Shown here piece after piece: positions 1 to 62,358 of a DNA stretch of 64,000 bases. The position numbers were made by a program, and so were the translations under genes. Origin of the DNA: Sipunculus nudus (lineage: Eukaryota; Annelida; Sipuncula; Golfingiida; Sipunculidae); assembly GCA_026874595.1 (NCBI GenBank), contig CM049321.1:7004979-7068978 (forward strand), in the 5' to 3' direction. The notes beneath the pieces were generated by a model. That model saw nothing but the letters and a program-made list of their open reading frames with translations, was not told the DNA's origin and made no database searches. Position 1 is the stretch's first letter. Every line of letters begins with the position of its first letter.

Positions 1-1993
1 GAGCCCTGAAGTACCCCCAACAAAAGTAAAAAATTTCATACAAAAACTTCAATATCTCATTAACTACTTGAATGATGGTCATGATTTGTGGCATAACTAT
101 TGATCATGAGATGTGTCATCTGTTCGTGCAGACTGGTGGCACCACCTGTATCGTTCGATTTTTTACGATTTTTTCCTCTATTTTTGAGACCTTTAAGGAT
201 GCTCTCATCTGTTAGCATGGCACAAATCGTAACGACTTGACCTAAAATCTTCATTCTCAACACACTAGAAGGCCTATGAAAAGTCTCCATGGAAACCAGA
301 AATTAGGTCTCTGTTACCCATATCCTTTGAGCTATGGGGCCCCAAAGTACCCCCCCAGAGTAGTAAAAAATTTCATACATAAACTTCAATATCTCAATAA
401 CTACATCACTGATGTTCATGATTTTTGGCATACATATTGATTATGAGATGTTCCATCAGTTCCTGCAGACTGGTGGCGCCACCTATATTGTTTGATTTTT
501 TTTACGATTTCTTCCTCTAATTTTGAGACCTTTAAGGATGCTGTCATCTGTTAGCATGGCACAAATCGTAACGACTGGACCTAGAATCTTCATTCTCAAT
601 ACACTGAGAGACCTATGAAAAGTCTCCATGGAAACCAGGAATTAGGTCTCTGTTACCCATTTCCTTTGAGCTATGGGGCCCCAAAGTACCCCTCAGAGTA
701 GTCAAAAATTTCATACAAAAACTTCAATATCTCAATAACTACATCACTGATGGTCATGATTTGTGGCATAACTATTGATCAAGAGGTGTTCCATCAGTTC
801 CTGCAGACTGGTGGCACAACCTATATTTGTTCGGGGTTTTTTTTACGAATGTTTTATCTATTTTTGAGACCTTTAAAGATATGAACATCTGTTAACAGGG
901 CACAAATCATAAAAACTGGACCTAGAATCTTCATTCTTGACACACAGGGAGACCAATGAAAATTCTCCATGGAAACCTGAAATTAGGTCTCTGTTACCCA
1001 TATTCTTTAGGCTGTATGGCTCCAAAATACCCCCCAGAATAATGGAAAATTTGATACAAAAAGTGCAGTATCTCTATAACTACAACACTGATGGTCATGA
1101 TTTTTGCATACATATTGATCATGAGCTGTTCCATCAGTTTCTGCAGAGAGGGTGCGCCACCTCTATTTTTTTCAAATTTTTACGAATTTGTTTTTCTCTT
1201 TTTTCGAGACCTTTGAAGATGTGGTTATCTATCAAGAGGGTACAAATTGCAACAACTGGACGTAGAAACTTCATTCTTGTCATGCAAGGAGGCCCATGAA
1301 GAGTGCCTGTGGAAACTTGAAATTAGGTCTCTGTTACCCATATCCTTCAAGCTATAGGACTCTGAAGTATCCCTCAGAATAATGGACAATTTGATACAAA
1401 AGCTGAAGTATCTGAACAACTAATATGGAGATCATCATGATTCTTTGCATGGATATTGACCATTAAGTGTTTTTAGCTCAGCTGACTGTAAGTCATCTGA
1501 AGTATCCTTCAGAATAATGGACAATTTGATACAAAAGCTCAAGTATCTAAACAACTATTGCAGTGATCACCATGATTCTTTGCATGGATATTGATCATGG
1601 AATGTGTCATCAGTTTCTGCAGTATGGTGGCGCCACCTGTATTTTTTTTATTTTTACGAATTTTTTTCTCTATTTTTGAGACCTCATAAGATGCGGTCAT
1701 CTGTTAACATGGCACAAAACGTAACAACTGGACCTAGAATCTTCTCTCTTGACATGCTGAGAGGCCCATGAAAAGTTTCCTTAAAAACTTGAAATAAGGT
1801 CTCTGTTACCCATAACCTCTGAGCTATGGGGCTCCGAAGTACCCCCCAGAATAATGGAAAATTTGATACAAAAGCTCAAGTATCTGAACAATTATTTTAT
1901 TGATCACCATGATTCCTTGCATGGATATTGATCATGAAATGTTTCATCAGTTTCTGCATTCTGGTGGCGCCACCTGTATTTTTTCAATTTTTA
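1..1993. repeat. Tandem array of ~338-bp units (array 1)
   Basis: Seven units can be followed by a recurrent palindrome-like GGTGGCGCCACC motif, starting near 135, 472, 810, 1150, 1627, 1964 and 2331. The basic period is 337-340 bp. Each unit also carries a CCATGGAAACC stretch, GTTACCCATATCCTT and TGGTCATGATTTTTGGCAT. The first unit resembles unit 1 of the arrays at 37.2 and 44.4 kb, so the element probably begins shortly upstream of the window. A head of the same element family (GCTCAGCTGAC) interrupts the array at 1475, which explains the long 1150-1627 interval. Reading frames here are repeat read-through, not genes. Confidence 0.9.
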
Positions 1994-3183
1994 GCTCAGC
2001 TGACTGAAAGTCATCTGAGCTGTAGGGATCACCTTTTGTCCGTCGTCCGTCCGGCCATCCAGGCGTCTGTCTGTTAACAGGGCACAAATCGTAACCGCTA
2101 GAATGGGAATCTTCTTACTTGAAATCCTGGGAGGTCTATGGAAATTCTCTTTGTAAACCTAAAATTTGGTCACTGTGACCTATATTCTTTGAGCCATGGG
2201 GTTCTGAAGTACCCCCCAGAATAATGCAAAATTTAATACAAAAGCTCAAGTATCTGAACAACTAATGCATTAATCACCATGTTTTTTGCATGGATATTGA
2301 TCATGGAGTGTTTCATCAATTTCTGGAGATTGGTGGCGCCACCTATATTTTTTTATTTTTTACGATTTTTTTTCTCTACTTTTGTGATCTTTAAACATTT
2401 GGTCATCTGTAAACAGGGCACAAATCATAATGACTGGACCTAGAATCTTCTGTCCTCACCTCCAGGGAAGCCCATAAAAGGTCTACATGGAAACCCGAAA
2501 TAAGGTCCCTGTTACCCATATCCTGTGAGCTATGGGGCTCTGAAGTTCCCCCAGAATAAAGATTTGGTCATATATTAACAGGGCACAAATCATAATGACT
2601 GGACCTAGAATCTTCTGTCCTCACCTCCAGGGAAGCCCATAAAAGGTCTACATGGAAACCCGATATAAGGTCCCTGTTACCGATATCCTTCATGCTCTGG
2701 GGCTCCGAAGTACTCCCCAGAATAAAGATTTGGTCATCTGTTAACAGAGCACAAATTATAATGACTTGACCTAGAATCTCCTTTCTTGATATGCTGGGAG
2801 GCCCCTGAAAAGTCTCATTGTGCACCTGAAATTACATCTCTGTTACCCATATCCTTCATCCTATGCGGCTTTGAAATACCCCCCAGAATAAACATTTGGA
2901 TTTGTTAACAGGGCACAAATCATAATAACTGGACCTAGAATTTTATTTTTTGACATGCTGGGAGACCCCTGAAAAGTCATCTTGTAAACCTTGAAAATAG
3001 GTGTCTGTTACCCATATCCTTCATGCTACAGAGCTCCATAGTACCCCAATGAATATTGGATGATTTTATACAAAAGGTCAAGTTTGGAAAAAGTATTTCA
3101 TTCAAATTTGACATTCAGATGATAAAATTACTTTTGTCAATGTCTTCCTGGTCAGCTGAGCGTCATGACCCCTGGGTCACTTG
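1994..3183 (+). mobile_element. Non-autonomous tandem-repeat element, 3' terminus present
   Basis: It starts with GCTCAGCTGAC and its imperfect inverted partner (GTCATCTGAGC), followed by a TCCGTCGTCCGTCC microsatellite at about 2038-2056 and then diverged units. It ends at about 3152-3183 with TCAGCTGAGC, a GACCCCTGGGTC palindrome and CACTTG. The same head and tail recur at 37124/40634, 44320/51697 and 46325/51476. The head at 1994 and the tail at 3183 may belong to one element, or the tail may belong to an outer element that starts before the window. Confidence 0.7.
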
Positions 3184-37085: not shown

Positions 37086-38488
37086 CACTTCAAATGAAAA
37101 AAAGCAAAACATTGATTTTATTAGCTCAGCTGACTGAAAGTCATCTGAGCTATAGCAATCACTCTTTGTCCGCCGTCCGTCTGTCTGTCCGTCCGTTAAC
37201 CAGGCACAAGTTGTAACCACTGGACTTAGAACCTTGTAACTTGGGATTCTGAGAGTTCCATGAAAACTTTCCTTGGAAACCAGAAATTAGGTCTCTGTTA
37301 CCCATATCCTTCGAGCTATGGGGCCCCCAAGTACCCCCCAGAAAAGTAAAAAATTTCATACAAAAATTTCAATATCTCATTAACTACTTGACTGATGGTC
37401 ATGATTTTTGGCATACATATTGATCATGAGATTTTCCATCACTTCCTGCAGACTGGTGGCGCCACCTGTATTTTTTGATTTTTTACGAATTTTTTTCTTT
37501 ATTTTTGAGACCTCGAAAAATATGAACATCTGTTAAGAAGGCACAAATCGTAAAGACTGGACCTAGAATCTTAATTCTTGACACACTGGGAGGTCCATGA
37601 AAAATCTCCTTGGAAACCAGAAACTAGGTCTCTGTTACCCATATCCTTCGAGCTATGGGGCCCCAAATTACCCCCAAGAATAGTCAAATATTTCATACAA
37701 AAACTTCAATATATCAATAACTACATCACTGATGGTCATGATTTTTGGCATACATATTGATCATGAGATGTTCCATCAGTTCTTGCAGACTGGTGGGGCC
37801 ACCTATATTGTTCGATTTTTCTACGAATTTTCTCTATTTTTGAGACCTTTAAAAATGTGAACATCTGTTAACAGGGCACAAATCGTAAAGACTGGACCTA
37901 GAATCTTCATTCTTGACACAGTGAGAGGTCCATGAAAGGTCTCCATGGAAACCTGAAATTTGGTCCCTGTTACCCATATTCTTTAAGCTGTATGGCTCCA
38001 AAATACCCCCCAGAATAATGGAGAATTTGATACAAAAACTGCAGTATCTCAATAACTACAACACTGATGGTCATGATTTTTGGCATACATATTGATCATG
38101 AGCTGTTCCATCAGTTTCTCCAGACTGGGTGTGCCACCTCTATTTTTTTCAAACTTTTACGAATTTTTTTTTTTTTTTTTGGAGACCTTTAAAGATGTGG
38201 TTATCTGTCAACAGGGTACAAATTTCCACACTTGGACCTAGAATCTTCATTCTTGTCATGCAAGGAGGCCCATGAAAAGTGCCTGTGGAAACTTGAAATT
38301 AGGTCTCTGTTACCCATATCCTTCAAGCTAAAGGACTCGGAAGTATCCCTCAGAATAATGGACAATTTGATACAAAAGCTGAAGTATCTGAACAACTTAT
38401 GGGAAGATCACCATGATTCTTTGCATGGATATTGACCATTAAGTGTTTTTATTAGTTTCTGCAGACTGGTGGAGCCACCTGTATTTTT

Positions 38489-39335
38489 GTATCCGCCAAA
38501 ACGAAGTTTTGTGGATACTATGTTTTTGACCGGGTTCCTTTGCCGCCGCCTCGTTCATTTTCAGAAAGATTTTTCCGAAACTTACACCAATTATTCGGTC
38601 ACATGTGAACTGGTGCCAAACCAATTTGCGTTGACCTCTGACCTTTCCTCTCTATCAAGCGTCCATTTGTGCATCTGTTTCCACACATAAACCCTCATAT
38701 CTCGGGAACCGTTTGATCAATCAGGAAATAAAATTTATACAAATGTAGCCCTTGGATTGCTTTATAACATACACAAAAAATGGTTGCACCACCTGTAACC
38801 ATGTTTGCACAGTGTCCATCTGTTCATCTGCCTTGGGTTAAAATCACTCATATCTCTGCAGTTAATTGACTAATTCACCTGAAATTCTTCATTCAATAAT
38901 ACATCCTGGATAGCTTTCTTGATTTTATGACAGGTGGTGCCACCTAAATTCATGTTCATGCTGATGACATCCAAGCTCATATCTCGGGAACTGTTTGACC
39001 GATCAGGAAATAAAATTTATACAAATGTAGCCCTTGGATAGCTCTATAACATACACAAAAAATGGTGGCGCCACCTGTAACCATGTTTGCACAGTGTCTA
39101 TCTGTTCATCTGCCTTGGGTTAAAATCACTCATATCTCTGCAGTTAATTGACTAATTCACCTGAAATTCGGCATGCGTATACATCCAGGATAGCTTTCTT
39201 GATTTTATGACAGGTGGCGCCACCTACATTCACGTTCACGCTGATGACATCAAAGCTCATATCTCTGGAACCGTTTGACCGATTTGGCCAAAATTTTGCA
39301 TGTGTATAGATCTCACATAGATCTCACAAAAAAAT
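38489..39335 (+). repeat. Second hairpin-headed repeat family (nested)
   Basis: Starts with a hairpin of GTATCCGCCAAAAC and GTTTTGTGGATAC around a GAA loop (38489-38518), then TTGCCGCCGCCTCG. Diverged ~280-bp tandem units follow with the recurring pieces ATCTCGGGAACCGTTTGA, TACAAATGTAGCCCTTGGAT and TGGTGGCGCCACCTG. A related head lies at 43961. No clear 3' end was seen. Confidence 0.65.
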
Positions 39336-39339
39336 GTTA

Positions 39340-39600
39340 AAGCTAGGGACTTGTTTTCAGTAATATAACTTTAATTAATCAAAATGTAATTGTATACCCA
39401 AAATTAGAAAAAAAAATCTTTTAAAATATAAAATTGGTTCCTTAAATTTAGCCCAAATTTACCATGGCACCGTTTTTTCTCGCAGGTACATTTAATTTTT
39501 TTTTTTTTTCACAGCCTGGATAAGTGGGTTTAATCTGTTGAATTCTGAAATTTGAAAGTAAAAGCTTAAAAATTATTCTAATTATTGAAGTTTTTCAGAT
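39340..39600. repeat. AT-rich module shared with 46.8-47.0 and 47.5-47.7 kb
   Basis: The strings ATAACTTTAATTAATCAAAA, AAATATAAAATTGGT and TTACCATGGCACCGTTTTTT recur in the same order at 46820-46960, and more loosely at 47500-47640. Confidence 0.75.
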
Positions 39601-40600
39601 GCTCTAATGTATTTTGTATATCCAAGACCCCACTCTTGTTCACTGCAGTCTTGCCTAGGTAACCTTATTAGTGATGCAGCACTGGCAGAACACCCCTGCT
39701 GTAATAAACATACACTTATTCTCATGGGCTCTACCCTAACACCCCCTCCCCCCCACCACCACCACCACCATCACCAATTATATTGCAATACATGGTTTGT
39801 TCTTGTCAACTGTATTTCTTTAAATGTAAAGCTGTTTTTGATCCAATGTGCACATCTTTTCTTGAAATATTAATTCAAGAAGTAATCCAAGAGATGCCAA
39901 GTTGTTCTGATGTAGCATTTTTAAGAAATTATGTCCTTTTAAATAATTAAACAAAATATAATTTAACCCATCAGTAGGCATAATTTGATAATATATGAAA
40001 CATATCATGGATAAATAAAGGTGTAATTTAATATTGTGAATTCTGGATTGTTATTTTCATATTTTTATTGCATTTCAAATTTTAAAAATATATTTTATAA
40101 AAAAAAAAAGAAATATATCTGTGTGCATTATGTGATGTTACCTGACTAAATCAAGTATAAATGTTGATGCAATTTAGATTTGTGAATCAATTTAAATATT
40201 CAGATATATATGATATACTGTAAAATTTATAAACTTAAAAAAAATGACTTAACAAAAGAAAAAATAGGATCTAATGCAAATATTTGTTCATTATTTTCCT
40301 GTCTCAGTAGAATGGAATATAAAGTTATTTGCTATGTTTTCCATCGCTCTGCCGGTTTTTAAATATTTAAAAATAATTTCATTTAAATTAAATTTTATCC
40401 TTTACGTATATGAAGAGGTACTGCAACTTCCACCATTCCCTGTAAGCTCCATTGAATTTAATTCTGTATTCTGTATTTATATCCAAAGGTGTTGTAACTC
40501 TCCCCCTCCATCAGTCATTGAGCCCTAGTTCCTGAGCACTGAGGATAGTATTTTTATTGCAACTTCAAAAAATCTATGGTGATGCAGTTATAACTGTCAC
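39601..40600. other. AT-rich part of the element, no gene
   Basis: Contains a CCACCACCACCACCA tract near 39750-39775. Open frames here (39607-39873, 40274-40528) are low complexity or lack any recognisable domain. Confidence 0.5.
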
Positions 40601-40955
40601 AATCAGCTGAGCACTGTGACCCATGGGTCCCTTGTAAATAATAAACATTTAATTATCACTACATTAATGGAATTGACCACTTGGACTGGTCGACCCTTAG
40701 TACTGACCTGCCTACAGCTGGACCTTACCAGGACCGGTCTGGTCCACACTTCTTAAATACACCCTGTGTGCACATATGTACTTGTCAAAATTAACAATAT
40801 TAGCCAATCAACTCAAAAATATCATTTACAAATTTGATATTTGATTTTATTTGGCCCATTTGAATTATAATTGATGCAGTCTCCAATTCTCAGTGTTTAA
40901 AGTTTATCAATTTATAATATATTCTTTATGTTTTGTAGTGGGATTTGATTCAAAT

Positions 40956-42233
40956 ATGGATGTGGACTCATCATCATTGGATGACTTGGAGTTGCATATT
41001 AAACAAGAGGATGAAGCTGACCTTGTACAGAATAATCAAAGAAATGAGCCTGAGGAATATTCATGTGAAGTTGAGAGTGTATACAATTACAATAAGGAAC
41101 AATTAGATGTAGAAGCAACAGAATTGTCTGACATAGACTTTGTGAAAGAAGAAAAGGATGAGTGTGATTTCCAACAAATTGCAACAGTTGAAAACAGTTC
41201 AAGAGATGAGGACCCGCCTTCAATCCTAAGTATATCAGCTAATAATGGGGACATAGAGGATATTACAGTTTATGTTGCTACTGAAGTTCCGAAAGATGGA
41301 ACAGACTTGTGTCCAGTTAAGTCTGAAATTACAGATAAGCAGAGATGGGCAGTTGATGATACAAGCAGCATCAGTGATGCAGATGTAATTAACGAATCAG
41401 ACAGAATTGATGATACAGATGGTGGTTATGACACAGATGGAAGTAACGATACAGACGGAATTAATGATACAGATGGTGCAATCAGATATCAGATCCATGG
41501 GGAGGACTCAGTAGAACAATTGCACAGAAAGAGTTTAGAAATTAATACAGAGGGAGAAACTACGGAAGATTTATTTGATCCGACTTCCACTCAACAGCAC
41601 ATTGGGACGAGTTCTGAATTAAAGTGTGAGAAATGTGGCAAATGTTACACCCAAAAGATACGTTTAGAGAAGCATCTGAGTACACACACTGGAGAGAAAC
41701 CGTTCAAATGCGAACTATGTGGCCAACTTTTTTCCCATTCTTCTGATCTACAACGCCATTTTCTTACACATCCTGGAGAGAAACCTTTTAGATGTGAACT
41801 ATGTGGTAAATGTTTCTCTTGTTATTCTAGTCTAACTGCGTACAGTAGAACTCATACAGGAGAGAGACCGTTCCAGTGTGAGTACTGTGACAAAAATTTC
41901 TCACAGAAATGGGCACTGAAATACCACATGGTGACACATAATAAAGAGAAGCCTTTCCAATGCTTGCAGTGTGGGAAGAGTTTCCTTCTTCAGGTAGATC
42001 TTGAATGCCATATAAGAGCACATGCAAGAGAGAAATCAGTAAAATGCATAGAGTGCGGCAGATGTTTTTTGAGCATGAAAGGGTTACGGAGACACAGAAA
42101 CGCACATACTGGAGAGACTCCATTGAAGTGTGAACAATGTGGCAAATGTTTCTCGGGTATATCTACTCTGAAGAAACATAAAAAAACACATGCTTTGCCA
42201 AACAAAAGTGATCATGCTTATCACTTAGTTTAA
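40956..42233 (+). CDS. C2H2 zinc-finger protein, seven fingers
   Basis: A putative nuclear sequence-specific DNA-binding protein of about 425 residues. A TTTTGTAG acceptor ends at 40938 and the first ATG after it is 40956 (MDVDSSSLDDLELHIKQEDE), matching the start of the paralogue at 29031. The N-terminal ~220 residues are acidic and contain a run of NDTDG-like repeats (about 41400-41485). Seven fingers follow from about 41620: LKCEKCGKCY, FKCELCGQLF, FRCELCGKCF, FQCEYCDKNF, FQCLQCGKSF, VKCIECGRCF and [10 protein letters not shown], mostly with HTGEKP-type linkers. Finger 3 has tyrosine in place of the first zinc-binding histidine (LTAYSRTH). No KRAB, SCAN or BTB domain is seen. It ends with TAA at 42233, and AATAAA lies at 42971. 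The frame is intact, unlike the two related loci upstream. Confidence 0.88.
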   Translation: MDVDSSSLDDLELHIKQEDEADLVQNNQRNEPEEYSCEVESVYNYNKEQLDVEATELSDIDFVKEEKDECDFQQIATVENSSRDEDPPSILSISANNGDIEDITVYVATEVPKDGTDLCPVKSEITDKQRWAVDDTSSISDADVINESDRIDDTDGGYDTDGSNDTDGINDTDGAIRYQIHGEDSVEQLHRKSLEINTEGETTEDLFDPTSTQQHIGTSSELKCEKCGKCYTQKIRLEKHLSTHTGEKPFKCELCGQLFSHSSDLQRHFLTHPGEKPFRCELCGKCFSCYSSLTAYSRTHTGERPFQCEYCDKNFSQKWALKYHMVTHNKEKPFQCLQCGKSFLLQVDLECHIRAHAREKSVKCIECGRCFLSMKGLRRHRNAHTGETPLKCEQCGKCFSGISTLKKHKKTHALPNKSDHAYHLV

Positions 42234-43960
42234 CAGACAACTAAAATCTGCATTTTAAGGAATGCAAGCCTCCACCATGTGGGGGTCCCTATTGTGGAAT
42301 GCTCCCCTTCCATGTGTGCATTCACTTATTCTTCCCATATTTTCAGGTTCATTTGTGACTAAGTTACCATTCACATGTGAAAATTCTGTGATTATTTTGC
42401 TGAATCTGAATCATGTGACGGATCTGCACCAAAATCTGATCAATTCTTCATTGGCCCGTTTATGAAATGTCCTTAAAATTTACACACGAACAAGTACAAA
42501 TGCATACCTTCCAGACAGAGGCAATAAGAGTCACATACTGGTGTTTTTTTTGTTACAGCTGGATGGTTTTATGTTCAAGCAGATATAGATTGACATGGTT
42601 ATTTCTTGAGTAAGGTTGAGAACGCCACCTGGTGACTGTACAAACATCTTTATCTTGGAGAAGACATTACTGTCAGAGACAGGAGACCTGGTTCAGGCAC
42701 CATTCACAACCTAGACTAGTCAAGTTCAGAAATCACCTAGACCAGAGCCCAAATCAGTCATGATTACCAGCCCAGGCCAGTACTGTACAGTTTTAGATCT
42801 GATCTGTAATAAATTCATCAGGAACAAATGGACCTGTCGTATTAGTGTTAGCCTTGTGATTAAACTTTATATTCCACTTCTGCCTTATGTTTTAGCAACG
42901 AATTGCAAGATGATGACAACCTACTACAACTAATTTGGCTGCTGCATGTGAGGGCTAGCATGTAATTTCAAATAAACTCTCCTCCTAATCAAGTATTGTA
43001 AATGATCTGCTTTTCTGCTGCCAGGCAGATTAAATTGGACTTAATATTATTAGGCCCTGTCATATACTGAGTCTGATAGCCATACAGTGAGAGTTTCTAC
43101 AATATAAGCCACTGAATATGCAACAGATCCATGGCATCTTCTGTGACTGCCTGTTCACTCTCTTACAACAAAACACAGGGTTACATGTTTTAACACCAGT
43201 AAGTATGTGTTTTTATGGTTTCGATAGCAACTAAAATGAAACATGAATTATTATTTTTAAACATTTACTGACCTTTATACCAGAGGTATATCAGTGAGTT
43301 TAGTAGGGACAGAGACAAACAGTCGTATTGGCACTTGGATATCTAACTGGGAGCCTTTCTGACTAGAGGCACTGAGAGCCAGAATTTTGTTACATTTTGT
43401 TTTTAGAGTGATGCCCTGGCACGGGGTAATAGGAACACCTGTTGACACTTGTTACAAGGGCATTAGGGAATGTGTAGTCTGAGGCTTTATAGTAGAAACT
43501 GTCACTGTATGGTTAAGGACTCAATATATGGCAGGGCATAACAATATTGAATCTGATTAAATCGTTCTCTTCTGCTGCATATTGTCAGTGGTGTAAATAA
43601 AGGTGATGCAAATACATGACATCTGGCATAGGAAAGGGCAAGTTTGCGTACAATAAGCCTTTCGAAATACTTTTAGGGTTCTCAGTTCTGCAGTGTTTGT
43701 AAAGGTATATGTCATTGGGTCACCACTTGTTTACACAAATGCGCAAACCGATTTATATATTTTAAAAGCTGAAATATAATGATATGTCAGAGCTTTGTAC
43801 GAACTCAGTTTATATTTGAAGTCCGATTTGTTTAACAGATGGTATTAAGTATTAATTTAGGGTCTTCAAGTGTACCTTGCTACACAAATAATTACCTAAA
43901 ATTAGTATTTGTGTCGTAATGGTGGCTTTATTCTATAGTTTTTTGCCAATTTATATATTT
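42234..43960. other. 3' UTR and intergenic, no further gene
   Basis: The zinc-finger 3' UTR probably runs to the AATAAA at 42971. Beyond it there is nothing recognisable. Confidence 0.5.
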
Positions 43961-44319
43961 GTATCACCAGACAAAGTCTGGAGATACTATGGTTTAGGCA
44001 TGGTTGCGCCGTCTCCACTGCCGCCGCAGAGTTTTCATTTGGACACGATCACTCCAAAAATATTTCACAGATCTTTACCAAACTTGACATGTGCATAGAT
44101 ATGGGTGAGAGGACAAAGCCTATTTAAAATAGGGTCATGACCTTTACAAGTTGAGTGACCTTGAACTTGAATAGTTCCATTTTGGGGAAAAATCACACAA
44201 ATTCTTAAATATCTCAAGAAATCTTTCCTGGATTGATCCAAAAATCAACTCGACCGAAAATATTGGATAGTGTTGTCATGTACCGGAAACTGGTGGCACC
44301 ACCTAGTATTCCTTTTTTA
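43961..44319 (+). repeat. Hairpin-headed repeat, second copy of the 38489 family
   Basis: Hairpin GTATCACCAGAC / AAA / GTCTGGAGATAC (43961-43987), then CTGCCGCCGCAGAG as in the 38489 copy, then a unit ending TGGTGGCACCACC. It is interrupted at 44319 by the insertion of the element at 44320. Confidence 0.65.
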
Positions 44320-46499
44320 GCTCAGCTGACTGTAAGTCATCTGAGCTATAGCGATCACTCTTTGTCCGTCGTCCATCCGGCCGTCTGGCCGTCTGTCCGT
44401 TAACAAGGCACAAATCGTAACCGCTGGACCTGGAATCTTCTTACTTTACATCCAGAGAGGTCTATGAAAAATCTCCTTGGAAACCTGGAATTAGGTCTCT
44501 GTTACCCATATCCTTCGAGCTATGGGGCCCCAAAGTACCCCCAAGAATAGTAAAAAAAATTCATACCAAAACTTCAATATCACATTAAATATCTCACTGA
44601 TGGTCATGATTTTTGGCATAAATATTGACCATGAGATGTTCCATCAGTTCCTGCAGACTGGTGGCGCTACCTGTATTTTTTTATTTTTTATGAATTTTTT
44701 TCCCTATTTTTGAGACTTTTAAAAATGTGGACATCTGTTAACAGGGCACAAATCGTAAAGACTGGACCTAGAATCTTCATTCTTGACATTCTGAGAGACC
44801 TATGAAAAATCTCCTTGGACACAAGAAATTAGTTCTCTGTTACCCATATCCTTTGAGCTATAGGGCCCCAAAGTAACCCCAAGAATAGTGAAAAATTTCA
44901 TACAAAAACTTCAATATCTCATTTATTACATCACTGATGGTCATGATTTTTGGCATACATATTGATCATGAGATGTTTCATCAGTTTCTGTAGACTGGTG
45001 GCGCTACCTGTATTTTTTTATTTTTTATGAATTGTTTTCTCTATTTTTTAGACCTTTAAAAATGTGAACATCTGTTAACAGGGCACAAATCGTAAAGACT
45101 GGACCTAGAATCTTCATTCTTGAAATTCTGAGAGACCTATAAAAAGTCTCCATGGAAACCAGAAATTAGGTCTCTGTTACCCATATCCTTTGAGCTATGG
45201 GGACCAAAAGTACCCCCTAGAATAGTGAAAAATGTCATACAAAAACTTCAATATCTCATTAACTTCATCACTGATGGTCATGATTTTTGGCTTACATATT
45301 GATCATGAGATGTTTCATCAGTTTCTACAGACTGGTGGCGTCACCTGTATTTTTCAAATTTTTACAATTTGTTTTTTCTATTTTTGAGACCTTTAAGGAT
45401 GTAGTTATCTGTCAACAGGGTTCAAATTGTAACGACTGGACCTAGAATCTTCATTCTTGACACACACAGAGACCCATGAAAAGTCTCCATGGAAACCTGA
45501 AATTAGGTCTCTGTTACCCATATCCTTTGAGCTATGGCACTCCAAAGTACAGCTCAGAATAATGGAAAATTTGATACAAAAGCTGAAGTATCTGAACAAC
45601 TAATGCAGAGATCACCATAATTGTTTGTATGGATATTGATCATGGAGTGTTTCATCATTTTCTGCAGCCTGGTGGCACCACGTATTTGTTCGGGCTTTTT
45701 TCGAAATTTTTACTCTATTTTTGAGACCTTTAAAGATATGAACATCTGTTAACAGGGCACAAATCATAACAACTGAATCTAGAATCTTTATTCTTTACAC
45801 ACAGGGAGACCCATGAAAAATCTCTAAGGAAACCTGAAATTAGGTCCCTGTTACCCATATCCATTAAGCTGTATGGCTCCAAAATACCCCTCAGAATAAT
45901 GAAAAATTTTATACAAAAACTCCAGTATCTCAATAACTACAACACTGATGCTCATGATTTTTGGCATACCTATTGATCATGATGTGTTCCATCAGTTTCA
46001 GCAGACTGGGTGCGCCACCTCTAAATTTTTTTCAAATTTTTACAAATTATTTTCTCTATTTTTGAGACCTTAAAGATGTGGTTATCTGTCAACAGGGTAC
46101 AAATCGTAACAACTGGACCTAGAATCTTCATTTTGTCATGCAAGGAGACCCATGAAAACTGTCTTTATGGAAACCTGAAATTAGGTCTCTGTTACCCATA
46201 TCCTTCAAGCTATAGGACTCCAAAGTATCCCTCAGAATAATGGAAAATTTGATACAAAAGCTGAACAACTAATCCAGAGACCACCATGCTTCTTTGCATG
46301 GATATTGACCATTAAGTGTTTTTAGCTCAGCTGACTATAAGTCATCTGAGCTATAGTCATGGTCCATTGTCCGTCGTCCGTCTGTCTGTCTGTCCGTCCG
46401 TCCGTCCGTCCGTCTGTCTGTCCGTCTGGATGTCCGTCCGTAAGACTGGCACGTTTCGACACCGTTGGACCTACGAATCTGAATTTCGGCATACAGTTA

Positions 46500-47720
46500 G
46501 ATGTCCCCATAATCTCCAACCATGCCAAAAATTGGGTCAATAGGACTTCGTTCCTTTGAGATATTAAGGAAAAACCTCAATTTTTTATTAGAAATCTATT
46601 TTCACACTTCAGGACTGCCTAATATCAAAACCACTCATCTGGTTTTCTTCATATTTACCATAATTATCCTCTATATAGTTCCTATGTACATGCCAGATAT
46701 TAAGTCAGTATTATATAATTTAAAAAAGTTATTGGCCCAAACATAATGCACTTTGTAAAAAAATCAGGAAGATATTTTGTCACTTAAGACCCAAAGTGTT
46801 AAAGGTAGGGACTTTTTTCCAGTAATAAAACTTTAATTAATCAAAATTTAATTGTTTATCAAAAATTAGATCAAAATCTGTTAAATTTTTTTAAATATTG
46901 GCAAAAATATAAAATTGGTACCTTAAATTTTACCCAACTTTGGCCATGGCACGTTTTTTTCCTGTAAGTACTGTGGATTTAATTTTCACACCATGTATAC
47001 ATAAGGATTTAATCTATTAAAATCTGAAAATTGAAAATAAAAGCTGCAAAATTAGGCTAGTTATTGAATTTTTTTGGAGGCTCTTGTTGTATTCCCTTAC
47101 ATTGTCAAGCAGTCCACTTTGATGACTGTAGGTCATTCAGTGCACATCTCTATGCTCCCCAGGCTGTTGACATAATTTTAGATGCCCCCAAAATCTCCTA
47201 CCATACCGAAAATTGGGTCATTAGGACTTTGTTCCTTCGAGATATTAAGGAAAAAAACTCCGTTTTCCATAAAAAAAGCCATTGTTACACTTCAAGGCTG
47301 CCTAATATCAAAACCACTCATCTGTTTTTGATCGTATTTGGTATTCACATTCTTTTATACATTTTCTATGAACATACCAAAAATTAGGTCAGTATTGAGT
47401 ATTAATTTGAAGTTATGGACCAAAACATAATGCAATTTTTTAAAAAATCAGGAAATATATTTACTCACATGAGAATTGCTGAACCTAGAGACCTTTTTTC
47501 AGGAATATAACTTTATTTAATCAAAATTCAATTGTTAACCCAAAATTAGATCTGAATTTTGCAAATTTTTCAAGTTATTAGCATAAATAAAAAACAATAC
47601 CTTAAATTTTGTCCAACTTTGGCACTGTTGATTTAATTTTCCCAGCATATATGCATAAGGATTTAATCTTTTAAAATCTGAACTTTCAAAAGAAATTGAT
47701 TGGAATGAATAGCTTTTATT
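46500..47720. repeat. Two diverged ~640-bp tandem units
   Basis: The ordered strings AAAATTGGGTCA(A/T)TAGGACT, CTGCCTAATATCAAAACCAC and AAAATCAGGAA occur in both halves, about 700 bp apart. It is internal to the nested element. Confidence 0.8.
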
Positions 47721-47982
47721 CATGTTTTCACACACCATGTCAAGTGTTGTTTACATCTAGCCCACCTAGTAGTACAGCCTTCACTTGCATTATGTAACCC
47801 ACCCCAGGCAGCTTACCTTGGCCCAGCTTGGCCACTCCTAGCATGCTTCCCCTCGCCCTGCACTCATCCCCCCCCCCCCAGCTGGTGCATAAACTAGATG
47901 AATGTTATAATTTTTCTGTATTTTATTGCTTGCCGGAATCAAAGATTTCGGCAAGCATATTGGTCAGTTGCGTATGTCTGTT

Positions 47983-48013
<31 letters not shown>

Positions 48014-48578
48014 TTGTTTGTCTGCACTCTCCTGGCCACAATTTTGCCACAATCACCTTGAAACTTACAGGGATGATGAAAAATATAATTTCTAGGTGCC
48101 CTATTGTTTTTGGTTAAAATAGGTCAAAGGTCAAGGTCAAGGTCGTCAAAACTTCTCAAAACGGTTTTTTCTTCATATCTTTGTCACTATTAGTCGTATC
48201 TACTTCAACAATAGCTTATTTTAATCGTCATTCCAAGGCCTGTCATCTGGTGTGTAGCTGACTCAAATTTGCCGTAACCATGGTTACAAATTTTGTGGGA
48301 AAGTCATGATATTCGAAAATAAGGGGTCTTTTTTTTCTAACTTTGTCAGTTTTAAAGCTAGAGTGATCTAGTTTTTTGCCTCAGGTAGCATTCAACTAGC
48401 ACTACAAGATTTTATTACAAGTCTTGCAGTATCTCGTAAAATATCTCGTGAATAGAGATATTTCGAGATTTCATTCATCTTGCGCCAAAGGCCACATTAT
48501 TGCAGGAATCTTTTTGAAACTGACATATTATAAGTCCTACACTAGTATCTCGAAATTGTTTTTTCATTTTTTGAATAG

Positions 48579-48595
48579 GGCCGCTAGGGGGCGCT
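48579..48595 (+). promoter_or_regulatory. CTCF-like motif in repeat unit 1
   Basis: GGCCGCTAGGGGGCGCT is close to the vertebrate CTCF core as I know it (CCACNAGGGGGCGC). Binding is not shown. It is one of four copies at ~330-bp spacing. Confidence 0.45.
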
Positions 48596-48905
48596 GGATG
48601 CGAACCTCCCGAACATATCATATTTTGGCAATATCTCCAAAATTATAAGCCTCAATTACATAAACTATAGCTTATTTTCTTCCTCTGGGTCTTCTCCATA
48701 ACCTAGTGTAGTCAACTGGTCACACTTTTGTGACACTTTGTCAGTGTGTCTGTCTGTTTGTCAGTTTTACTCAAATTTGCCTGCTTGCTCTTGCGTCTCA
48801 CATATAGCATTCTACAGGCCACCGTTTTGAAAGAATCCTTTTGAAACTATAACATCTTAAGTCTTGCACTAATATCTCAAAACCAATTTTTCATTTTCCG
48901 GATAT

Positions 48906-48922
48906 GGCCGCTAGGGGGCGCT
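48906..48922 (+). promoter_or_regulatory. CTCF-like motif in repeat unit 2
   Basis: GGCCGCTAGGGGGCGCT, identical to the copy 327 bp upstream. Diverged copies follow at 49236 (TGCCACTAGTGGGCGCT) and 49568 (TTAGCTAGAGGGCGCT). Confidence 0.45.
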
Positions 48923-51905
48923 GAACTCGAACCTCTCCCAACATATCATGCTTTGGCAATATCTCCAAAACTATAAACCTCAGTAACATAAACTGTAGCT
49001 TTTTTCTTCCTTTGGGTCTTCTCCATAACCTGGAGTAGTCATCTGGACTCAATCTTGAGTCACTTTGTCAGTGTTTTCGTCTGTTTGTCAGTTGTCCTCA
49101 AATTCGCCTGCTTGTTGGTTCTTGCGTCTAATATATAGCATTCTCTAGGCCACAGTTTTGACGGAATCCTTTTGAAACTATTACATCTTATGTCTTACAC
49201 TAATTTTTAAAAAAAATTTTTCATTTTCCTGATATTGCCACTAGTGGGCGCTGCAAACGACCCTCACACACATACCATTGTATTGGCCATATCTCTACAC
49301 CCAAAGCCTCAGTTACATAAGCTATAGCATATTTTCTTCCTTTGAGTCTTCTCCATAACCTGTTTAAGGCATATGGTTTCAATCTTCTGTCACTTTGTCA
49401 GTGTGTCCATCTGTTTGTCCGTTATCCTCAAAGTCGCTTGCTTGCTGGTTCTTACGCCTTACATATAGCATTCTACAGGCCACCGCTTTGACGGAATCCT
49501 TTTGAAACTGGGACATCTCATGTCATACACTAATAATACGAAACGCATTTGTCGTCTTCGGAATATGTTAGCTAGAGGGCGCTACAGTCGAGCCTCCCAA
49601 GTATATCATTAATTCGCCATACCTCCAAAACTATAAATCTAAATTACATAAATTATAACTCATTTTCTTCCTTTGAATCTTCTTAATCACCAGGTTATGT
49701 CATCTGGTGTCAATCTTGTCTCACAAAGTCAGTATGGTCTTTTGTTGTCAGCTTTGTCTGCTTGCCTGTTCTTTTGTCTCATATGTCATTCTACGGGCCA
49801 CATATCCTCAGCAATGTCCCTGAGAGTCATTCCATTAATAGAAAACCGACAATATGTTCTGTCTGTCCGTCTGTGTTTCACTTCCGATTTCCGGCAAGCG
49901 TTCGACCTATGGTCGTCTAATTTTATTCTTGGACATGCTACATTTTAGATTTTGTATTGAACCACCAGGGTTACATTGATTAAAGTGTACATTTAATTGT
50001 GTCCACAAAGTGGTGTATTGCTGGGAAAGTCTGGATGTTCATGAGATAAGTAATTCCTTACTTCAGAAGAGTAAAAACTTCACCAGGTGTGAAATTGACT
50101 ATTAATTCCAGTAATTAATTAAAACTTGGATAGTAATTAGCACAATGATATTGTTTGTCCCTCATTCAACCAACAGTGTGTATACTTTATTTGAAATGAT
50201 GTTTTATTTTGTCAAATTTACTTTTATTTTATTTTGGTGAATAAAATTAAGCATGTCCTGAAAACTCCAATATGCAAAACTTTTTAATAGTGATTCAAGG
50301 AATATTCTTGTAGATGCCATGTTGTGGCATTATTTTCTTTTAAAATCAGTTAAAACACACAGATTTAAAAATAATAAAATATATGTGTATGCATAATATG
50401 ACCCAATGTTTTTTACTCTGTATATATAATGATTGCAACTTTTGCAACAATTCTAATATTTTAACTTATATTTTCAGGTTTTTTAATTAAAAATTTATAA
50501 ACCTGTAAATAAAAAAATGATACAGATAAAAACTTCTTAATGGAAAAAGTGGATCTGCTTAAAAAAATAGGATTATATATAAACTTAAATGCATTATTCT
50601 CTTGAAAGTGAAATAAAGGTATTAGTCCATTCTGTCCACCTGCCTGTCCATCTGTAAATTTTCGTATGCAACACAGTATCTCAAAACTTTTACTGTTTTT
50701 CCTCATGACAGTCTTGTCAGAGTATTAGTTTGCAATCATATATTTAGAACTTTACTATAACCAAGTAGGAGGGCCCCTTTCCTCTTAGCTTTTCATATTC
50801 TTATATAAATGAAAAACATTACAATAGAATATTTCTACATCCACCTTCGTGCTGCCCTCACTTTTCCCTTCTGCGAACCCCATCCCAAAGTCAGCCTCAG
50901 TAAGCAAGAACAAGATGAATCAGATATATTCATACTTTAATATTTTGTATAACTATTCGTCCATAGGTACCTATGTACATGCCAGAAATTATGTCAATAT
51001 TGTGTAATATGTAGACATAGTGGGCATCACAATAATGTACCTTGTCAAGACTAAAGAGATATTGTGTCATACAGTCACATAGTCATAAATCACTTCATCA
51101 GCATAGTTAATCATAACATCATATCTGTCAAATTGAACGCTTGCAGACTACCATACTCTTTAGATCCTTCAACAAATAGCCTTATCATCTACTACTGCTT
51201 ATTACTGCTGTCATTGCATTCATATTTGCTCAAATATATCACAATTTTCAACCCCTCCTAAATAAATAAAAAATAAACCACTTTATTTGACTCTATTAAT
51301 CCATCAGTCAGGTAATTTCATTTATCATTTACTCACATATTACATTACATTCCTTTATAATAGCCCAACATGTACATGATATTCATAAGCTTTATCGACT
51401 CGATATAGTATCACAGTGGAGAAACATTTATAGTCCAATCACGATCAGCTGAGCGCCGTGACCCATGGGTCCCTTGTTATTAGTTTCTGCAGACTGGTGG
51501 AGCCACCTGTATTTTTTTTTAAATTTACGCTTTTTTTCTCAATTTTTGAGATATATTAATACAGACTCAATCTCAGCCTGTTGGTTAATCTGTTTGATGC
51601 TTCAGTTGAATGGTTATATACTGCCATTCAGATGATAAAATTTCCTTTTGCAAATCTCTTCCCAGTCAGCTGAGCGTCATGACCCATGGGTCACTTGTTA
51701 TATATTATTATAGACCGACCCCTCGAATATTGATACGGCAACGTCACTTAGCGTCACGTAAATCTAACTTCATTATATCATGTGACATTAAGAGCTGGGA
51801 CAAGTCTGAAGTTCGACCACAATACACTTTTCTACAGTTTGATACTGCCTTCCGAGCATCTATTACAATTACATCGCGGTACCTGGGCTTGAATACTTTT
51901 GCACT

Positions 51906-62220: not shown

Positions 62221-62358
62221 TTGCATTGTACATCTAGCCCAAATATTCACATGCGACACCCGCTCTCGTTGGTCTGAAAAAAAACCTGTTCTGGCATAAA
62301 TCAAACCAACGAGAGCGGGTATCGCATGTTTAAAGTTTGAGCTAGATGCACAATGCAA
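62221..62358. mobile_element. Fold-back (inverted-repeat) element
   Basis: Arms 62221-62273 and 62305-62358 are near-perfect inverted repeats around a ~31-nt loop (for example CCCGCTCTCGTTGGT versus ACCAACGAGAGCGGG). It lies 260 bp after the lectin stop codon, inside the likely 3' UTR (AATAAA at 62466). A related single arm lies at 63688-63785. Confidence 0.85.

Follow-up and report, generated by a model that had tools for sequence, protein, structure and literature searches.

The locus and its repeats

The window analysed here is a stretch of 64,000 nucleotides (C16:7004979-7068978) of a 1.43-Gb eukaryotic genome in 153 contigs. Its open reading frames include a sulfotransferase, two C2H2 zinc-finger proteins and a C-type lectin domain, and it carries repeats of four families, here A to D, which begin with a short hairpin closed by a 3-nt loop, referred to below as the head (Table 1). 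An earlier note on this sequence described their common blueprint and ascribed it to convergence of unrelated repeats. Helentrons are rolling-circle elements known from oysters and flies, with relatives in fungi, and we consider it highly probable that the repeats are non-autonomous Helentrons (HINEs) of an animal genome, belonging to the Helentron branch of Helitron2. The common blueprint is the published anatomy of Helitron2 and Helentron ends, a known design rediscovered, of which families A to D are further members.

Three of the elements form a nest, with D inside A-4 and A-4 inside A-3. The A-3 array breaks at 46320, where the A-4 head starts, and its unit resumes after the A-4 end at 51476. 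When the flanks of A-4 are joined, the resulting empty site matches an A unit that is not interrupted (87.5% over 144 bp), the insertion lying in a T run and without duplication. Such T-rich insertion without target duplication, characteristic of Helentrons, is seen both at the A-4 site and in an element on C8, described below, which lies in a GTTTG tract. In keeping with a site of this kind, TT precedes GCTTG in 17 of 17 D-type heads whose search pattern did not require it; another 31 matches in that set are these hairpins seen from the reverse strand. The D-in-A junction is found again at C1:27.6 Mb, where the A part is 96% identical, and locus L005 has the A/B junction of 38489 as well; the composites therefore exist at more than one place, whether by transposition or by duplication.

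Could the elements be miniature inverted-repeat transposable elements (MITEs) or other cut-and-paste transposons with terminal inverted repeats, given that short inverted repeats stand at both ends? DINE-1, too, was reportedly first called a MITE. The same name was originally given to the bivalve element pearl (PMC7492417). We regard this explanation as extremely unlikely, because the ends are asymmetric, the A-4 site lacks a target duplication and D termini bound a RepHel gene, as set out below. The elements also differ from canonical Helitron1, which has 5' TC, 3' CTRR and A|T insertion and lacks a 5' hairpin: a 5' hairpin is present, the 5' TC is absent and the insertion site is a T run, not A|T.

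Table 1. Elements and element parts in the window (positions counted from the first nucleotide of the window)
Feature	Position	Strand	Description
Family A HINE with both ends	1991-3183	+	head hairpin 1993-2021, 3' subterminal inverted repeat (subTIR) and palindrome 3152-3183
Truncated A head inside A array	1473-1503	+	
Family A head, element A-2	37121-37153	+	14-bp hairpin, one C/T mismatch, GAA loop, then TCCGTC microsatellite
A-2 central tandem repeats	37249-38330	+	period 335
Family B head hairpin	38489-38518	+	bulged stem, GAA loop, inserted in A-2 array
Family A 3' end, probable A-2 end	40603-40634	+	TCAGCTGAGC, GACCC/GGGTC, terminal CTTG
Family C head	43961-43987	+	12-bp hairpin, A/A mismatch, AAA loop, then GCCGCC stretch
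Element A-3, holds A-4	44317-51697	+	head 44317-44349, array 44399-46259 (period 337), 3' end 51666-51697
Element A-4, holds D	46322-51476	+	head 46322-46354, 3' end 51445-51476
Family D HINE	47926-49919	+	hairpin 47927-47957, TGTC microsatellite 47975-48024
Family D HINE, inner parts	48505-49724; 49889-49899	+	330-bp repeats (48505-49724); 3' subTIR TTCCGGCAAGC (49889-49899), palindrome CGACC-TAT-GGTCG

Head hairpins

A scan of the window for hairpins with arms of at least 12 bp, a 3-nt loop and at most one mismatch, AT-rich matches excluded, returned six (starting at 1993, 37122, 43961, 44318, 46323 and 47927), compared with three in total from 20 dinucleotide shuffles. Five of these had been reported earlier and stand as described, each with one mismatch: those at 37122-37152 (loop GAA), 44318-44348 (GTA), 46323-46353 (ATA) and 47927-47957 (AAA) have 14-bp arms, and the one at 43961-43987 (AAA) has 12-bp arms. 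The sixth, 1993-2021, was absent from the earlier list. The B head, to which the same 12-14-bp stem had been attributed, does have the GAA loop, but its stem contains an internal bulge and misses the 12-bp, one-mismatch scan; its folding z-score is -5.1 despite the bulge, and the six heads listed earlier range from -4.3 to -6.4 in DNA folding. As subTIR palindromes, those of A, C and D measure 14, 12 and 14 bp with one mismatch each, B being bulged, which places them in the 12-15-bp range of Helentrons.

Genome-wide, families A, B and D were counted as pattern matches, with the reversed pattern as control. The exact A head pattern occurs 6796 times and the exact D head pattern 1128 times, and neither reversed pattern occurs at all. 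Heads had also been expected beside TCTG-type tracts more often than by chance, and they are. The first 100 places listed on C1 were merged by hand into 16 GTCT tracts below 13.43 Mb; in six of these an exact A or D head lies no more than 150 bp away on the 5' side (0.007 expected), none has a head on the other side or strand, and ten have no head at all.

A wider survey covered 363 kb of sequence, the window included and the other loci bearing L numbers, much of it chosen for A or D heads. Hairpins were surveyed there with arms of at least 11 bp, at most one mismatch and loop lengths from 1 to 12. Those with a GTCY-like tract in the next 80 nt have a loop of 3 in 40 cases, of 8 in five and of 9 in one, and no other length in the range surveyed occurs among these 46, which are not independent because the loci were often chosen for A or D heads. 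The five loop-8 cases are a single D variant, whose fold is a bulged stem closed by a loop of 3 nt. Another 56 loop-3 hairpins have no tract by the rule used. The majority are these same heads seen from the opposite strand; the rest include a few heads with a tract that missed the rule (the window heads 1993, 44318 and 43961 among them). Two head families beyond A to D were encountered, E in L036 and F in L055. The F head (L055 2953-2983), TATAGTCGCCAGCC-TAG-GTCTGGCGACTATA, starts directly after a D 3' end.

What follows the heads agrees largely with the earlier description, in that a pyrimidine microsatellite stands after A and D heads and a GCCGCC stretch after B and C heads. The tandem units of ~280-340 bp also described there are present in A (335-340 bp), in D (330 bp) and, by eye, in B, as about two units of ~290 bp. 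The head at 46323 has instead, by eye, repeats of ~675 bp, and no C array is visible because the next A interrupts C after ~330 bp.

3' ends and their palindromes

Copies of the head arm at the 3' end, previously claimed for two families, were found in three: A (3152, 40603, 51445 and 51666), D (49889) and B (in L004 and L054). The A end is composed of the arm copy TCAGCTGAGC, the palindrome GACCC/GGGTC and a terminal CTTG. The D end has TTCCGGCAAGC, the palindrome CGACC/GGTCG or compensated variants of it, and mostly a terminal CTAG. In B, the arm copy TTTTGGCGGATA is followed by GTAGTCG/CGACTAC and a terminal CTAG, so that the GACC/GGTC palindrome reported earlier is found in A and D and replaced by a different one in B. 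The expectation that matched 3' ends would recur across the genome holds for A (16,673 copies) and B (4,410), as counted with patterns into which the palindrome was written and with none for the reversed controls; for C, no 3' end was found in the 363 kb examined. As head and tail patterns are unequal in strictness, the ratio of their counts says little.

The stem of the D palindrome is conserved among copies. In eight distinct D 3' ends, chosen with a palindrome filter, 40 of 40 cells are paired and three of the five pairs show a compensatory change, a count matched by 2 of 500 shuffles, while the covariation score was reached by none of 500. Six of these ends terminate in CTAG, one in CTTG and one in CTAA. 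When the filter is dropped, 16 D arm sites lie outside recognised heads; nine are 3' ends, every one of which has the palindrome, and the other seven are, by eye, five reverse-strand head arms and two chance matches.

These data also bear on the notion that the hairpins, which do adjoin microsatellites and tandem arrays, arose as a side effect while microsatellites or satellites evolved and play no part in mobility. We give it next to no credence, because thousands of exact A heads face an empty reversed control, the heads at the six GTCT tracts stand always on the 5' side, and heads are matched by distant 3' ends with compensatory changes.

A probable gene-carrying partner of family D

With 150 of 195 candidates scored, the genome contains at least 143 matches to the Helitron_like_N domain (PF14214). 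From one lineage we examined three RepHel copies (C11, C8 and C4). Each has, ~5-7 kb past the RepHel stop, D-type head or repeat sequence in inverted orientation. On the upstream side of the gene, the homology between copies stops, in C8 and C4, no more than ~6 bp from a D-type 3' end that is likewise inverted. The C8 element measures ~20.8 kb, from a D-type head at 80149626 to a 3' end at 80128814, and encloses RepHel on the opposite strand; pieces of its open reading frame score above the Pfam cut-offs for DUF6570, OTU, Helitron_like_N, PIF1 and Exo_endo_phos. What adjoins it at both ends appears to be the GTTTG microsatellite of an outer D element that it interrupts, and this places the borders at T|T. 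The window D element is 88% identical to the C8 element over 1213 bp at the 5' end, the comparison at the 3' end being one of the arm and palindrome region only, and the two have in common both ends, the microsatellite and ~330-bp repeats.

Judged from sequence, the mover of D is probably this large gene-carrying element of C8 type. The link between D and RepHel is new here: in the parts of the oyster study on which we draw, no autonomous relative was found for any Cg_HINE and such a link could not be made (PMC7492417), whereas D is tied to one in this genome. D and RepHel form a testable pair of donor and driver.

Several observations weigh against the assignment of the repeats to Helentrons or against parts of it. 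Both D-type ends are present in one of the three RepHel copies, that on C8. The C4 copy has the 3' end and D repeats with no head at the microsatellite, and the C11 copy has D-type heads with no 3' end in 14 kb upstream, so that with these two incomplete the full case for D and RepHel depends on a single copy. A, B and C yielded no RepHel partner. A BLAST search with ten stretches of the window, D among them, gave no match at 1e-8 to 30 RepHel loci with 1.5-kb flanks; it was blind even to D, which does have a partner, and is therefore uninformative for the other three families. For C, as for E and F, no 3' end was found in the 363 kb examined. Finally, the three window palindromes that were folded (two of A, one of D) were not stable relative to shuffles, with z-scores from -0.7 to 0.7.

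The top 30 Rep loci, compared at 60% identity, fall into groups of 23 and 3 and four singletons (L009 and L010 being poor translations), which indicates that several RepHel lineages coexist in the genome. This matters for the view, close to that of the earlier note, that unrelated repeats converged on a hairpin because one enzyme reads its shape alone. The fold is indeed kept, with its 3-nt loop, while the arm sequences differ among A, B, C and D and also E and F. We nevertheless think such convergence very unlikely. With several RepHel lineages present, one enzyme need not serve all families. B and C, which gave no BLAST match to each other at 1e-8, are alike by eye in the stem base and the motif that follows. 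Moreover, the families have the whole layout in common (microsatellite, arrays, 3' arm copy, palindrome and T site), and this is the layout of one superfamily, already described as Helitron2/Helentron. The idea that the hairpin is the part on which the enzyme acts fares better, since the transposition machinery probably does handle it. That the arms co-evolve with the enzyme, as the note also proposed, is a conjecture, D being the one family that could be tied to a RepHel and a comparison of arm and enzyme phylogenies thus being out of reach. The observation made earlier is largely confirmed, and its interpretation was half right.

D heads also occur in tandem, often 59-83 bp apart, and a GTYT-type tract of three units stands just before the head in 7 of 29 exact and 13 of 17 variant D heads. 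Tandem heads may have arisen as new copies landed in the microsatellite behind an older head, as in C8; alternatively, by analogy with Fusarium, they might be repeated 5' termini. At C8:80.12 Mb (L045 374, 1665 and 2956), D-type heads with the same flank recur every 1291 bp as a tandem array beside the RepHel element. On C1, 31 of the 92 exact D heads and most of the Rep matches are located at 63.3-67.3 Mb, possibly a pericentromeric store of Helentrons. An E head near RepHel in L036 was considered as the end of that element and rejected, as it points away from the gene and could not be found in L038, a related locus.

Relation to known systems

The following comparisons draw on parts of the cited papers. 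In Helitron2, the 5' inverted repeat is contained in a 5' hairpin, its 3' copy stands above a 3' hairpin, compensatory mutations occur and RepHel is sometimes on the opposite strand; termination was proposed to proceed by 5'/3' pairing that opens the 5' hairpin (PMC3627910). The inverted repeats there are asymmetric and 8-15 bp long, and of these A, B and D show both halves and C the 5' half, whereas the C8 element departs from Helitron2 in having an endonuclease domain, as Helentrons do (PMC3627910). The Helentrons and HINEs of mite, mosquito and Drosophila resemble the present elements in their 12-15-bp palindromic subTIRs, 3' palindrome, TT site, microsatellites or tandem repeats, RepHel-endonuclease fusion and, in one case, RepHel in minus orientation; the C8 element differs in its size of ~20.8 kb and in the long repeat blocks on both sides of the inverted RepHel (PMC4067079).

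Compared by published description, Cg_HINE of Crassostrea gigas and the bivalve pearl have the same 5' subTIR with a complementary inverted repeat 1-12 nt away, GTCY/GTCC microsatellite, satellite-like central repeats, 3' subTIR with palindrome and oligo-T site without duplication (PMC7492417). Oyster HINEs carried 13 of the 13 abundant satellite-like repeat clusters examined, with drivers given as unknown in that account (PMC7492417). FoHeli of Fusarium oxysporum has a GAA-loop 5' hairpin (TCAGCC GAA GGCTG AC), multiple 5' termini and some inverted open reading frames, and differs in being fungal, in the absence of the endonuclease domain and in its shorter stems (PMC5148889). The Helitrons of the C. 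gigas assembly paper are similar in their 3' CTAG and 3' hairpin, with subTIRs in 257 of 751, and different in their 5' TC and A|T insertion, which were not seen here (PMC7992393).

A possible termination switch

What could determine the point at which copying of such an element ends? In the scheme we envisage, a Helentron RepHel would nick at the T|T ends and strip off one strand, the displaced 5' end of which would fold into the hairpin. At the 3' end, the 5' arm would pair with its 3' copy, and the hairpin would thereby open and the end of the element be marked, with the 3' palindrome acting as terminator. The single-stranded product would then be joined into another T run. The arms would serve as family addresses, and the fold would be the part common to all.

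The 3' copy in A, B and D is a perfect match for the 5' arm, whereas the hairpin partner is an imperfect one, the stem defect being a mismatch in A, a bulge in B and a wobble in D. Pairing energies, which ignore loop and distance entropy, favour the 3' copy over the hairpin partner in A (-16.2 vs -13.0 kcal/mol), in B (-18.1 vs -10.0) and, narrowly, in D (-16.7 vs -15.9). C, E and F have one stem defect each. Among 16 distinct A heads, eight came from a pattern that fixed the mismatch and the G.A loop and were excluded; the remaining eight all keep the mismatch (8/8), with loops GAA in three, GTA in two and ATA in three. GNA triloops are unusually stable in DNA. Under a pattern that also allows healing bases, 109 of 6905 A heads genome-wide depart from the standard pair.

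It is conceivable, though we hold the idea tentatively, that the hairpin is kept imperfect and that the 5' arm switches to the 3' copy at the end of replication, making the pair a two-state DNA switch. That such a switch, rather than a recognised sequence, would set where rolling-circle copying stops seems to us similarly doubtful. The fit is a possible one for just the three families with both ends known (A, B and D), together with the defects of C, E and F. Perfect 12-bp D hairpins do exist (L049 and L065), so the stem defect is not universal, which weighs against the switch. We found no statement of an imperfect-hairpin rule in the portions of the Helitron2/Helentron literature on which we draw. 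Such a rule, if true, would make the published model of the Helitron2/Helentron copying end directly testable, and we know of no test of that model.

Orientation of the elements and other observations

The heads found in the window are all on the plus strand. At C1:0-4.36 Mb, A and B keep the same orientation over long stretches: an unbroken series of 45 A 3' ends among those listed, spanning 64 kb to 1.17 Mb, is on the minus strand, after which blocks of changing strand follow. B and A 3' ends 10-50 kb apart are on the same strand in 47 of 53 pairs, which are not independent, and 1 of 98 circular shifts gave a value as high. Beyond 4.4 Mb on C1, B 3' ends agree with A heads in 17 of 34 cases at 10-60 kb and in 15 of 23 at 60-100 kb; as no co-orientation is seen there, we do not claim strand domains as a general feature. 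Co-orientation could result from the direction of replication or transcription, from selection or from duplication. A search for zinc-finger linker positions, meant to relate gene strand to element strand, found one in the useful part of C1. Replication-linked orientation bias is described for IS200/IS605 and Tn7, and none is stated for Helitrons in the portion of that source on which we draw (PMC5371812). Elsewhere in the window, at 62249-62329, lies a 29-bp inverted repeat, 93% complementary and with a 23-nt spacer, which is apparently unrelated to the heads.

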